From a virus: a stretch of 64,000 nt of DNA. Each line of letters starts with the position of its first letter. Within the stretch, counting starts at the first letter, position 1. The position numbers were made by a program, and so were the translations under genes. The stretch lies in IMG/VR virus record IMGVR_UViG_3300024503_000441, positions 83,330 through 147,329 of that record. One strand, given 5' to 3'. A model generated the notes under the pieces. That model made no database searches. It was not told where the DNA came from and saw nothing but the letters and a program-made list of their open reading frames with translations. Shown piece by piece: positions 7,426-64,000 of the stretch.

Positions 7426-7455
7426 TATTTAGCACATAATCTACGCACATAAATA
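7426..7455. promoter_or_regulatory. Divergent pair of late promoters
   Basis: Minus strand: CTAAATA (7426-7432) followed by TCAT and the FkbM ATG. Plus strand: ATAAATA (7449-7455) followed by 5 bases and the ATG at 7461. Both predict transcripts starting at or next to the start codon. Confidence 0.65.
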
Positions 7456-58844: not shown

Positions 58845-58875
58845 TAAAGTGAGCATCATTCTCTTGTGCAGAGCC

Positions 58876-58904: not shown

Positions 58905-60113
58905 ATGAAGAAGCGTAACTACACACAAGACACAGTCCGTAAACTACAAGGCTCTGTGCAAATAGAGCATACACTAGCTAAACGTGGTGCCACAAAACTA
59001 CGTGAGCTATTAGCGACAGAACCCTATGTCGCAACGCTAGGAGCATACAGCGGCCAACAGGCTGTTCAACATGCCAAAGCAGGACTAAAAGCGATTTATC
59101 TATCAGGTTGGCAAGTGGCTGCTGCTGCTAATACAGCTAATCAAGTATACCCAGACCAAAGTCTATACCCAGTAAATTCAGTACCAACGATTGTTAAACA
59201 GATTAACAATGCATTCCGTCGTGCTGATCAGATTGAATATTCAGAAGGTAAAGTAGAAACAGATTACTTTCTACCAATCGTAGCAGATGCTGAAGCGGGA
59301 TTCGGCGGAGCACTAAACGCATACGAACTAATGTCAGCGATGATCGAAGCAGGCGCAGCCGCAGTACATTTTGAAGATCAACTATCTAGCGAAAAGAAAT
59401 GTGGGCACTTAGGCGGCAAGGTTCTAATCCCAACTAGCCAAGCTATTCGTAACTTACAGGCTGCAAGGTTAGCCGCAGATGTGGCAGGAGTTGACACAGT
59501 TATTCTAGCACGTACAGATGCAGAATCGGCAACACTTATCACTAGCAATCACGATCCATTGGACAAGGATTTTATTATCGATGAACGCACTGAAGAAGGT
59601 TTTTACAAGTTTAAAAATGGGCTTGATGCATGTATTAGGAGAGGTCTTGCTTATGCCCCTTACGCTGATCTCTTATGGTTCGAAACTAGTACACCTGATA
59701 TTGCACAGGCTAAGAAATTCGCCGATGCTATACATGCTGAGTTTCCAGACCAAATGTTGGCTTATAATTGCAGTCCTAGTTTTAATTGGCGCAAGTTTTT
59801 ATCTGTAGAAGAGTGTGAAACATTCCAGCGTGAGCTAGGCGAGCTTGGTTATAAGTTCCAATTTATTACACTAGCAGGTTTCCACTCAGTTAACTTAGCA
59901 ACATTTGAACTAGCAGAAGCATACAAGGCACGTGGTATGGCTGGTTACAGTGAAATGCAACAACGTGAGTTTGCCGCACAAGAGCGTGGCTTCACAACCG
60001 TTAAACATCAACGTGAAGTTGGCGTTGGCTACTTTGATTTAATTAGCGAAGCAGTTGGGGCAACGAGTACTGTAGCAAACAAACACTCAACGGAGGCGGA
60101 TCAATTCCATTAA
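58905..60113 (+). CDS. aceA: Isocitrate lyase
   Basis: A 402-residue enzyme that splits isocitrate into glyoxylate and succinate. The catalytic signature KKCGH is at residues 164-168 with Cys166 as base. [11 protein letters not shown] and the substrate region [20 protein letters not shown] are intact, and [18 protein letters not shown] follows. Length is a little under bacterial AceA (about 430). No malate synthase is seen in the window, so glyoxylate would pass to host enzymes. Desaturase gene follows one base later. Confidence 0.95.
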
Positions 60114-60114
60114 T

Positions 60115-60816
60115 ATGCTTATTATAATCTATACCTTGGTGATGGTACAAATCACTATTGCTTGTGTTACTTTGTATTTGCATCGTAGTCAAGCACACAG
60201 AGCAGTATCATTTCATCCAGTGGTTAGTCATTTCATGCGTTTATGGTTATGGTTAACAACAGGTATGAACACTAAGGAATGGGTTGCAGTTCATCGCAAG
60301 CACCATCAAGCAAGTGACACAGCGACAGATCCACATAGTCCTAAAATATATGGTATCTGGCGTGTACTGTTTGGTGGTGCATTTCTTTATGTTAAAGCAA
60401 AGAATGATCCTGAAGTTATAAAGTTAGGTATTGGAACACCTAACGATTGGATAGAAAATAAAGTTTACACTCCCCACCCCTTTGCAGGGATTCTATTGAT
60501 GTTGGTCATTGACCTTGTTCTTTTTGGCCTTGCTGGGTTTATAGTGTGGGGAGTTCAGATGCTTTGGATTCCGTTTTGGGCTGCTGGAGTTATTAACGGC
60601 CTTGCACATTGGATAGGATATAGGAATTATGATACAAAAGACACTTCTCGTAATCTTGGGCCTTTTGGTGTTTGGATTGGTGGTGAAGAACTTCATAATA
60701 ATCACCACGGAGACGGTGCAAGTCCTAAATTCAGCACTAAGTGGTACGAAGTAGATATCGGCTGGATTTATATTAAAACGTTAGAATTTTTTAAATTAGC
60801 AACTATTAGAACTTAG
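60115..60816 (+). CDS. Fatty acid desaturase (delta-9 acyl-CoA type)
   Basis: A 233-residue membrane desaturase with all three histidine boxes: HRSQAH (23-28), HRKHH (60-64) and HNNHH (near 194). Hydrophobic segments at 1-20 and about 120-155. Shorter than typical (about 300), so the N-terminal membrane helices are trimmed, but the di-iron site is complete. It would introduce double bonds in host lipids, changing membrane fluidity in infection. Co-transcribed with isocitrate lyase. 11-base overlap with the convergent gene. Confidence 0.92.
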   Translation: MLIIIYTLVMVQITIACVTLYLHRSQAHRAVSFHPVVSHFMRLWLWLTTGMNTKEWVAVHRKHHQASDTATDPHSPKIYGIWRVLFGGAFLYVKAKNDPEVIKLGIGTPNDWIENKVYTPHPFAGILLMLVIDLVLFGLAGFIVWGVQMLWIPFWAAGVINGLAHWIGYRNYDTKDTSRNLGPFGVWIGGEELHNNHHGDGASPKFSTKWYEVDIGWIYIKTLEFFKLATIRT

Positions 60817-61540
60817 TTGCAATAAATTCTGCTTCAGGAATACGTGTGTGGGTATTTTTACTACCTAACACAATTACAATTCTGCGACCAATATCAGTAT
60901 CTAACATCATCGCAATACAACCTCCACTGGCTCTTATGTAGCCAGTTTTGCTGACTATAAAGTCGTGACGTTTTCCAATGATAGGATTAGTGTTATTAAA
61001 TATCAACCATTTTTTACGCATTTTAATTTTTACATGAGGTGTGCTGGCCGATTTAACAATTTCAGGATAGGTCTTAGCAACTATAACTTGTTTAACTAAA
61101 TCAGTTGCGGTGCTTACATTAAACACTCCTAAGCCAGTTGGGTCTACATACTTTGTATCGTGCATACCAATAGAGTGTGCTTTTGCATTCATAGCTCTAA
61201 CACAGGCAACTTTGCCGTTAGGAAAATGTTCGCACAAGAGTTCTGCAGCTTTATTATCGCTATGCACAAGTGCTAACTGCAATGCTTCGCCCCGTGTGTA
61301 TTTGCCAATACGTTCATCTAGATCTTGATGAGCATCTAACACAACCATTGCAGTCATTAATTTTGTAATACTAGCTATACTGCGAATTTCAGTTATGTTG
61401 TCACTTTGAATAACGTTGCCGGATTCATCGGCCACGAGCCAGCTTTGAGCGGTGATAGGCAAAGGTTTGGAGCTGGTGGCATTTGTTTGCCCGCTATAAA
61501 AAACGGAAAGTAATACCAATATAGAAAAGATTCTACCCAT
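60806..61540 (-). CDS. D-alanyl-D-alanine peptidase (S11 family, PbpG-like)
   Basis: A 244-residue exported enzyme. Signal peptide at residues 1-21. Active-site motifs SITK (Ser57, Lys60), SDN (94-96) and KTG (near 200). The C-terminal membrane-anchoring helix of DacA types is absent, as in endopeptidase PbpG (DacA family). It cleaves peptidoglycan cross-links, so it may assist lysis or entry. It has its own leaderless sigma70 promoter. Confidence 0.92.
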   Translation of the reverse strand: MGRIFSILVLLSVFYSGQTNATSSKPLPITAQSWLVADESGNVIQSDNITEIRSIASITKLMTAMVVLDAHQDLDERIGKYTRGEALQLALVHSDNKAAELLCEHFPNGKVACVRAMNAKAHSIGMHDTKYVDPTGLGVFNVSTATDLVKQVIVAKTYPEIVKSASTPHVKIKMRKKWLIFNNTNPIIGKRHDFIVSKTGYIRASGGCIAMMLDTDIGRRIVIVLGSKNTHTRIPEAEFIATKF

Positions 61541-61576: not shown

Positions 61577-63661
61577 TTATTTTTCATGTGCGATAAACTC
61601 GCCATTCCAATCATCGCCTAGATCTTGTTGTTTCATAAAGTCACAACGCTCGATCCACATTTTATAGTACTTGTCCATTTGTCCGTTAAATGAACCTTTC
61701 ATTTCATCACAGAGTATTTTGGCTGCATCAAATTGTTTGAGCTTATACAATTCGTGCATCTTATTGTGTGTTATACGAGACTTGTTATATTCTTTAACAT
61801 CGCCTTTGATGCGTAATGCTGTATAGATACTATCAGCAACAGTCTTACCTTTTGGCTGTAAGTTATCCAAATACAAGTAAAAGAAATCATCTTTACTACG
61901 GTTATATGTTTCAGCACCAATAATACATAGCACACCATATGCTTTACAACGTGCCTCTAAACGTGCCGCAGTACTAACCATGTCACCTAAGATGTCATAG
62001 CTGTGTCGTTCTGTTGAACCCATTTCACCAATAAATCCAATACCACTATTACAACCCCAACCCATTGCTGCTGGAGGTAAACCTTGTGCTTCCATTATCT
62101 TAGTGTATTCATCTACAGCATCTAACATTTCTAAGCCAACACGCACAATAGTTTTAGCATGGTCTGGATCATCAATAGGCGCACCATGAATGTGCATACT
62201 TGCGTCACCTACATACTTGATAACCATACCTTTGTTTTCAAGCATAGGCTTACTGATAGCATCCATGTAGCCGTTCATGTATTTGCCAAGTCCAGCAACA
62301 TCATCACCGTAGTGTTCGCCAATTGGTGTAAAGCCGCGTAAGTCACTAAACATAACACTAACATCTTTCCTTACACCACGCTTAATTAAATCGGGATCTT
62401 TTTGTAACATTTCCACAACTTCTTTTGAGCAATATCCTGCAAACTGTTTCTTTATGGCTTGCTTTTGTAAGAATTCGCTGACAAACTTGACACCGTAGGC
62501 ATGCAGAGCGACCAAGAGTAGGCCAACTCCAATGGCAGTAGCGTCAAATAACCATAGATAGAGATCGTACATAACCCAACTGCCAACAGCAGAGCCGCCA
62601 ATGATAATAATAGTCGATGCCAAACCTGCATATACATACCTCGTTAAGAAAATTAATAAAATGCCGGCAACAAGTAATGTTATAATTTCAACACCATCTG
62701 CATAGTCTGGTCTTTGAATGTTAACTTGATTAGCCATTGTAGCAATAACAGCCGCTTGCATTTCTTGTGGCCAAACACTTCCAATACTAGTTGGTACAGG
62801 GTTCCCTAGTCCAGCGGCCGCAGTTCCTACAATGACAATAGCACCACCAAAGTCTTTTGGAAGATTAGCCATAGAAACTGAACGAGATTTTTGACTCCAG
62901 TCAACCCATACTCGACCTAAACTGTCTGTTGGAATTATTCCAATGTCTCCAGGTAATCTCATTTTTTCAACGCCACCTTCAAACAGTTTAACTTGGAATG
63001 TTGAATTAGCTGTTGCAACTCTCATTGTTTCCATTGCAAGACTTGGATATAATTTACCATCAACTGTAACAATTAAAGGCAATCGACGATTAACACCATC
63101 AACTTCTGGCAATGTGTTTGTAGTTCCTACACCAGCTGCAGCATTTTCTAATCTAGGAATGTTAGCAATTAATCCAGGATAAGTTACAATTTGATCTAAC
63201 CATTCTGGATTAAGTACGGCACTACCTGGAACTTTTGGTGTATTTTTTGTCTTTTGTGCTGGGGTATTAGGCAGAACTACAGGATAGTGTTTTAATATCT
63301 GTTCTAGAGCTTTGTCTCCTCCTTGTCTGTCTGCTTCTGGCATTAAGACATTCCATACTACTAGTCCAGCTTTGCGAGCATATAGATCTTCAATCATATC
63401 TGCATAGACTTCTCTGTTAAACGGCCACTGTCCGTATTTGGCCATAGTATCTTCGTCTATGTTTACAGTATAGATATTATTTTCTACTGCTGGTTTACTT
63501 GTTATTAGTGTGTCAAAGTAACGTAATCGTACACTTTCTACAAATGTTGGATCAGATATTCTTAATCCTAGAATTAAGGCTAGTGTTAATAGTGCTGTCC
63601 ATGGACTAACTAATATTTTTTTAACGTGGAATTGCGGCAGCTTTGGCAGGGAGATCTTCAT
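61577..63661 (-). CDS. CHASE2 sensor-adenylate/guanylate cyclase
   Basis: A 694-residue membrane sensor. TM1 at about 16-34, an extracytoplasmic CHASE2 domain (about 35-330, with FNREVYADMIEDLYARKAGL), three TM helices (about 335-405), and a class III cyclase domain. The latter has metal Asp in FSDLRGFT and YVGDAS, Lys in VIKYVGD and Asp in SYDILGD (adenylate preference). The transition-state Asn is Ser here (GDMVSTAAR instead of GDxVNxAAR). It would make cAMP in response to a periplasmic signal. Read with the lipoprotein gene upstream. Confidence 0.93.
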   Translation of the reverse strand: MKISLPKLPQFHVKKILVSPWTALLTLALILGLRISDPTFVESVRLRYFDTLITSKPAVENNIYTVNIDEDTMAKYGQWPFNREVYADMIEDLYARKAGLVVWNVLMPEADRQGGDKALEQILKHYPVVLPNTPAQKTKNTPKVPGSAVLNPEWLDQIVTYPGLIANIPRLENAAAGVGTTNTLPEVDGVNRRLPLIVTVDGKLYPSLAMETMRVATANSTFQVKLFEGGVEKMRLPGDIGIIPTDSLGRVWVDWSQKSRSVSMANLPKDFGGAIVIVGTAAAGLGNPVPTSIGSVWPQEMQAAVIATMANQVNIQRPDYADGVEIITLLVAGILLIFLTRYVYAGLASTIIIIGGSAVGSWVMYDLYLWLFDATAIGVGLLLVALHAYGVKFVSEFLQKQAIKKQFAGYCSKEVVEMLQKDPDLIKRGVRKDVSVMFSDLRGFTPIGEHYGDDVAGLGKYMNGYMDAISKPMLENKGMVIKYVGDASMHIHGAPIDDPDHAKTIVRVGLEMLDAVDEYTKIMEAQGLPPAAMGWGCNSGIGFIGEMGSTERHSYDILGDMVSTAARLEARCKAYGVLCIIGAETYNRSKDDFFYLYLDNLQPKGKTVADSIYTALRIKGDVKEYNKSRITHNKMHELYKLKQFDAAKILCDEMKGSFNGQMDKYYKMWIERCDFMKQQDLGDDWNGEFIAHEK

Positions 63662-63842
63662 CGTCTTTGTATCCTAAACTTGTAGCACCTGATTTCTCTT
63701 GTGCTGTCATTGATTTACATTTACCTGCAACAATCATCTCACAAGGAGGTGGTGCCATTACAGGCCTTTCAATAGTAACAATTTTAGGGCCTGCACAGCC
63801 TGCCAGTAAAATTGCTGATAATATTGATACTTTTTTAAGCAT
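63621..63842 (-). CDS. Small lipoprotein upstream of cyclase
   Basis: A 73-residue protein. MLKKVSILSAILLAGCAGPK is a lipoprotein signal with lipobox L-A-G-C. Mature part contains a Cys pair separated by 7 (PPPCEMIVAGKCKS) and a polar tail. Overlaps the cyclase start by 41 bases. It may interact with the CHASE2 domain in the periplasm; this is inferred from the operon only. Confidence 0.78.
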   Translation of the reverse strand: MLKKVSILSAILLAGCAGPKIVTIERPVMAPPPCEMIVAGKCKSMTAQEKSGATSLGYKDDEDLPAKAAAIPR

Positions 63843-63846
63843 TCAA

Positions 63847-63853
63847 TATTTAT
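63847..63853 (-). promoter_or_regulatory. Late promoter ATAAATA, 4 bases before ATG
   Basis: Minus-strand ATAAATA, TTGA, ATG at 63842. Places the lipoprotein-cyclase operon under phage late control. Confidence 0.6.
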
Positions 63854-63862
63854 CTAGAAATT

Positions 63863-64000
63863 TTAGGTTTGATAATCAGGAATTTCTTTAGAACCGTCGC
63901 CTGTGCCCAGTATACAGGCGATTTCTGAAGTGAATTGTATAAAAGTCCAGCTTCTTGTTTGTTTATTGATGAAAAGGCTGTACCTTGTGTCGTCAAGAGC
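63863..64000 (-). CDS. Partial gene running off the right edge
   Basis: C-terminal 45 residues of a minus-strand frame, open to the window edge and ending at TAA 63863. Visible part: SLFINKQTRSWTFIQFTSEI ... ACILGTGDGSKEIP. Domain not recognisable from the fragment. Confidence 0.6.
   Translation of the reverse strand, partial: ALDDTRYSLFINKQTRSWTFIQFTSEIACILGTGDGSKEIPDYQT

Follow-up and report, generated by a model that had tools for sequence, protein, structure and literature searches.

What a phage might do with a membrane-bound adenylate cyclase, and whether such a gene belongs to a phage at all, are the questions raised by the end of one viral contig. The window, i.e., the whole 64,000-nucleotide stretch of DNA that was analysed, corresponds to positions 83330–147329, the end of a 147,329-bp IMG/VR record (IMGVR_UViG_3300024503_000441), and its minus strand carries at 61577..63661 an uninterrupted open reading frame (ORF) of 694 aa encoding a CHASE2 class III adenylate cyclase. 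The periplasmic CHASE2 sensor domain (residues 26–334; 62660..63586, minus strand) matches Pfam PF05226 with E=1.2e-38, and the class III catalytic domain (residues 425–612; 61826..62389, minus strand), supported by Pfam PF00211, Foldseek, and a low dN/dS, contains a Guanylate_cyc (PF00211) match at residues 432–590 with E=2.9e-14; both lie far above the Pfam cut-offs, so that the complete transmembrane sensor-cyclase read earlier from the sequence alone is confirmed. A conserved helical C-terminal tail (residues 613–694; 61580..61825, minus strand), recognised in the AlphaFold2 model and by comparison, is found also in the phage isolate Melnitz (54%) and is absent from the isolate HTVC008M. 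The AlphaFold2 model has a mean pLDDT of 87.7, mostly about 90 in the CHASE2 part, and its helices at residues 20–36 (the N-terminal end of CHASE2), 321–341, 343–368, and 374–407 point to a predicted topology of one membrane helix before CHASE2 and three after it. By Foldseek, the catalytic part of the model matches CyaB of P. aeruginosa (3r5g) with a TM-score of 0.85 by target, and CyaC (1wc3) is also matched, the TM-scores by target for the two structures being ~0.8–0.85. The best PHROG for the protein is phrog_35576 (E=2.7e-174), a phage family without a name, so databases already held phage homologs of it.

The phage origin of this DNA is supported from several sides. The other end of the 147,329-bp record holds a T4-like structural cluster, and its major capsid protein shares at most 71% identity with those of large phages. 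An independent contig (L002) overlaps the window with 99.9% identity over 4339 bp and extends past the end of the window. Moreover, close homologs of the cyclase (65–100% identity) occur on 80 IMG/VR contigs among the matches listed, of up to 364 kb, relatives are found on hundreds of IMG/VR contigs, and the isolates Melnitz and HTVC008M carry orthologs with 45% and 36% identity, respectively. The best homologs outside phages reach 25–29% identity on plasmids and 26–32% in bacteria. Host DNA joined by misassembly, which the earlier note had named as one point that could undo its proposal of a phage-encoded cyclase, is thus ruled out by the overlapping contig, the two isolates, and the hundreds of related contigs.

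Only 158 bp of the contig of the window remain upstream of the lipoprotein gene that precedes the cyclase, which is why the wider context was missed at first reading. In L002, the gene order is CsgF–CsgG–curlin–FecR–curlin fibre–99-aa protein–lipoprotein–cyclase, with the cyclase as the terminal gene. CsgF (PF10614, E=5e-8), CsgG (PF03783, E=7e-47), a curlin-repeat gene of 324 aa (PF07012, E=2e-5), and a FecR-domain gene (PF04773, E=4e-9) were recognised by Pfam, together with an 806-aa fibre gene that has weak CsgA/CsgB similarity. The ORF of the 99-aa secreted protein is complete in L002 (9500–9799), and only its 3' end, cut by the end of the contig, is present in the window (63863..64000, minus strand). 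Among 50 phage records with the cyclase, which are often fragments, 48 also have CsgG, and in the two misses the cyclase lies ~3 kb or less from the contig end. Conversely, among 44 phage CsgG loci with more than 9 kb downstream, FecR was present in all 44 and the cyclase in 41; three phage CsgG loci yielded no cyclase within 10 kb, and at three further phage loci (L077–L079) the curli genes are located downstream of the cyclase in a different arrangement. The link between cyclase and curli therefore appears strong, yet not absolute. Separated from the curli cluster by a few genes, adjoining genes for a heme oxygenase (284–838) and a ferredoxin-dependent bilin reductase (831–1511) lie upstream of it in L002.

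The same genes in the same order, with the cyclase last and no CsgE seen, are found in Melnitz and HTVC008M, and a pelagiphage type VIII secretion system (T8SS) cluster that includes FecR and an adenylate cyclase has already been published (PMC9599517), so that a phage curli-cluster cyclase is a known kind. Here, the carriers are contigs of T4-superfamily phages, of up to 364 kb, and between fibre and cyclase they have an added 99-aa secreted protein, joined in some by a short lipoprotein. Moreover, whereas pelagipodophages have a histidine kinase in front of the cluster, none was recognised by Pfam upstream of it in L002, where the 519-aa gene preceding CsgF has no Pfam match. Besides these larger contigs, what seems to be new is a coupled pair of active-site residues, D556/S563, together with a catalytic domain that was exchanged twice or more while the sensor was kept. 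The earlier note envisaged a cAMP system that stands alone and serves catabolite control or sensing between phages; in that form it is not supported, since the cyclase closes a curli/T8SS cluster. Instead, the cyclase is probably the signalling arm of a phage-borne curli/T8SS module and a predicted maker of cAMP under envelope control.

In such a module, the phage would produce late in infection a pore of CsgG and CsgF in the outer membrane, fibre proteins with curlin repeats, and a FecR-domain protein in the periplasm. The cyclase would be inserted in the inner membrane with CHASE2 in the periplasm, and its catalytic domain would face the cytoplasm and could, as a dimer, convert ATP into cAMP there. 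Its activity would most likely be set by the periplasmic FecR protein, or by the state of the pore or fibre, and cAMP would then work through a Crp-type receptor of the host, which is assumed. The synthesis of cAMP, control by FecR or the curli machine, the topology, and the host receptor are what we infer from the genes and models. The cNMP-binding domain PF00027 was found in none of the 50 phage records, often fragments, in which it was sought; a phage-encoded cAMP receptor is therefore set aside and any receptor is expected from the host.

The gene directly upstream of the cyclase and its promoter were also part of the initial reading. A 73-aa lipoprotein ORF with the lipobox ILLAGC (63621..63842, minus strand) overlaps the start of the cyclase by 41 bases, and among relatives the lipobox is conserved and the remainder is divergent. 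In 18 of 75 assessable loci, the 700 bp upstream of the cyclase include a short lipobox ORF, and none precedes it in Melnitz or HTVC008M. Thus, of the proposed lipoprotein partner, the gene order holds here and the general partnership does not; an obligate partner is ruled out, and the constant partners of the cyclase are instead FecR, CsgG, CsgF, and the curlin-repeat proteins. The late promoter fares better. The late-promoter-type motif GATAAATA (63847..63854, minus strand) lies 4 nt ahead of the ATG of the lipoprotein gene and is kept in relatives. Of the broader pattern [TGC]ATAAATA, the 147-kb genome has 18 copies, and 14 of these stand no more than 150 nt upstream of an ORF with 100 aa or more, against ~1.2 expected. 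The exact TATAAATA was rejected as the late promoter, as it is unenriched in the window (one found, 3.3 expected), whereas the broader pattern shows strong enrichment upstream of genes. Five genes with 100 aa or more (e.g., at window position 7448) have [TGC]ATAAATA exactly 5 nt before their ATG. With the spacing of T4, such motifs would place transcript starts at or beside the start codon, and the distance to the ATG suggests leaderless late mRNAs.

A late-promoter motif would also suit a role in lysis, in which the CsgG pore, the cyclase, and a downstream D,D-endopeptidase would time the breakdown of the envelope. Directly downstream of the cyclase there is indeed an S11 D-alanyl-D-alanine endopeptidase/carboxypeptidase-like gene (60806..61540, minus strand; PF00768, E=3e-34; NCBIfam NF008668, E=3e-49, under cut-off), which adjoins the cyclase in many relatives, and a lysis role has been proposed for the curli pore of Melnitz (PMC9004378). 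However, the endopeptidase does not adjoin in all relatives and is thus not constant, and complete curlin-repeat fibre subunits and CsgF would be superfluous for a pore alone, so that lysis control seems unlikely. Further downstream, the window contains a full-length isocitrate lyase gene (58905–60113; NCBIfam NF011645, 685 bits against a cut-off of 562) with a KKCGH motif, a late-promoter-type motif at 58875, and a Shine–Dalgarno-like sequence, followed immediately by a fatty acid desaturase gene (60115–60816), relatives of which lie near the cyclase in many phage loci.

Whether the proposed signalling arm could make cAMP at all depends on its active site. As the earlier note had read it, the metal-binding Asp residues (D440 and D486) and the ATP-type pair (K482 and D556) are intact, and the Asn that is usual, not universal, at the transition-state position is replaced by S563 (codon at 61973..61975, minus strand). 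R567 is present as well. Sequence comparison places D556 (codon at 61994..61996, minus strand) at the base-specifying position, where bacterial relatives have Ser or Thr. S563 is invariant in 81/81 close phage homologs and is therefore not a sequencing error. Among ~318 sequences scored, drawn as the best 80 per scan by similarity or peptide patterns and thus a sample and no census, 158 phage sequences have D/S at positions 556/563 (80/80 of the clade of the window and 78/79 of the Melnitz clade), and S/N is found in 79 HTVC008M-clade sequences and one Melnitz-clade member. The best 80 bacterial relatives have S/N or T/N throughout, with no D/S cyclase among them. D556 and S563 were never found singly, and across the ~318 sequences the six catalytic positions form one of a few complete sets that are retained. 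Moreover, when the D..S motif was sought as a DNA pattern, it matched none of 399 Pseudomonadota genomes, whereas the control pattern for the Asn form matched 34 of 50; the D..S pattern matched eight of nine phage records, the sole miss being the S/N-type HTVC008M, and all 80 of its matches listed in IMG/VR belong to this cyclase family. The two residues thus appear to be a coupled pair that is limited to phages among the genomes sampled.

The absence of Asn leads to the idea of a catalytically dead pseudo-cyclase that is kept as a structural or sensing scaffold. In its favour, Ser is invariant in the clade of the window, and Asn is essential in mammalian cyclase according to a reference cited in PMC4215837. 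However, Ma1120 of Mycobacterium avium, which likewise has Lys/Asp and a retained Arg but no Asn at the transition-state site, is active with Ala there, and its activity is drastically lowered when Asn is restored (PMC4215837); Ser at this position, therefore, need not mean inactivity. The resemblance concerns the site, Ala in Ma1120 against Ser in the phage, and no kinship of architecture is claimed; it is also the only published case at hand, as no literature was found on Ser at the Asn site specifically. In addition, the remaining five catalytic residues are invariant, sister phages use Asn-type domains in its stead, and the catalytic domain, with a median dN/dS of 0.059 against 0.152 for CHASE2, is the most constrained part of the protein and under strong purifying selection. 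A dead enzyme is thus very unlikely; the change from Asn to Ser could reduce turnover. The coupled D/S pair would, in turn, offer a ready test for an alternative, fully active class III arrangement without the transition-state Asn.

The unusual pairing of base site and transition site could also mean an altered choice of base, with cGMP, cCMP, or cUMP as the product, for example to perturb a Pycsar-type defence, and the PADLOC PycC profile does match with E=1.5e-11. This match is confined to the catalytic fold that the two share (residues 430–570), whereas K482 and D556 make up the classic pair for ATP, the cluster showed no Pycsar effector, and the phage cyclase lies outside any defence context; the candidate assignment to PycC was rejected on these residues and this span, and another cyclic nucleotide is extremely unlikely.

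The history of the two domains bears on which part of the protein matters. In the CHASE2 tree, the HTVC008M clade is nested within the Melnitz clade and a single clade of D/S types is rejected (p-AU 0.0025), whereas in the catalytic-domain tree the D/S types group together and a union of the HTVC008M and Melnitz clades is rejected (p-AU 5.6e-5). Moreover, one Melnitz-clade cyclase (L307, 9001–11037) has an Asn-type (S/N) catalytic domain, an apparent second exchange. Thus, the catalytic domain seems to have been exchanged at least twice beneath a retained CHASE2 sensor, in a direction that the domain trees, which are quick and have long branches, do not fix. Replacement by another complete catalytic set would imply that catalytic activity is retained, and the conservation of CHASE2 through the exchanges that the input of the sensor matters. 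The latter also weighs against a general host-takeover cyclase, which would raise cAMP to shift the catabolite or stress regulation of the host and merely happen to lie next to the curli genes. The ATP-type residues are intact, and no phage receptor was found in the 50 records, so that a host target is required, as this explanation would have it; the periplasmic CHASE2 kept through catalytic-domain exchanges and the near-obligate linkage to CsgG and FecR across three divergent phage groups make it improbable.

The signalling arm of a curli module can be carried further, albeit tentatively: the phage would build an envelope sensor that monitors the assembly state of the curli pore and fibre made by the phage and, through cAMP, informs a receptor of the host, the D/S site would be specific to phages and have arisen once, and catalytic domains of either type would have been exchanged under the conserved sensor. 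If so, a lytic phage would possess a complete envelope-sensing second-messenger pathway tied to fibre export, of the sort usually deemed bacterial, and isolates such as Melnitz and HTVC008M would provide an experimental handle on the unexplained curli clusters of phages.

The pairing of this sensor with FecR is seen also in bacteria that lack curli. Bacterial CHASE2 cyclases (CyaD1, CyaD2, and CyaK of Sinorhizobium meliloti, and those of Bradyrhizobium, Paracoccus, and others) likewise have CHASE2 and a class III domain, together with the three further membrane helices that are predicted for the phage protein, often with a FecR-domain gene nearby as in the phage, but they share 25–32% identity with the phage protein, and the best 80 differ from its D and S in having S/T at 556 and N at 563. 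A FecR gene lies within 10 kb of the cyclase in ~29 of these best 80 relatives, as counted with a home-made profile that misses some, and in four annotated plasmids it adjoins the CHASE2 cyclase or lies within ~0.5 kb. CsgG, by comparison, was found anywhere in only 6 of the 40 bacterial genomes that encode a cyclase of this type; Telmatospirillum has both, apparently on separate contigs, and linkage of curli to the cyclase in bacteria is unsupported. Thus, FecR plus CHASE2 looks like an older unit, and the curli link like a feature of phages. In Burkholderia, an operon that likewise pairs a periplasmic FecR with a CHASE2 sensor controls biofilm, its output being a kinase and a response regulator rather than cAMP (PMC5192318), and the CHASE2 cyclases of S. 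meliloti respond via NsrA, a barrel of the outer membrane, and target Clr through cAMP (PMC13001267). Very large FecR-domain proteins, of ~1200–3700 aa, are encoded in relatives from Bradyrhizobium and Methylobacterium (L094, L095, L098, L102, and L106), where their genes are located directly upstream of CHASE2 cyclases or apparently lead up to them.
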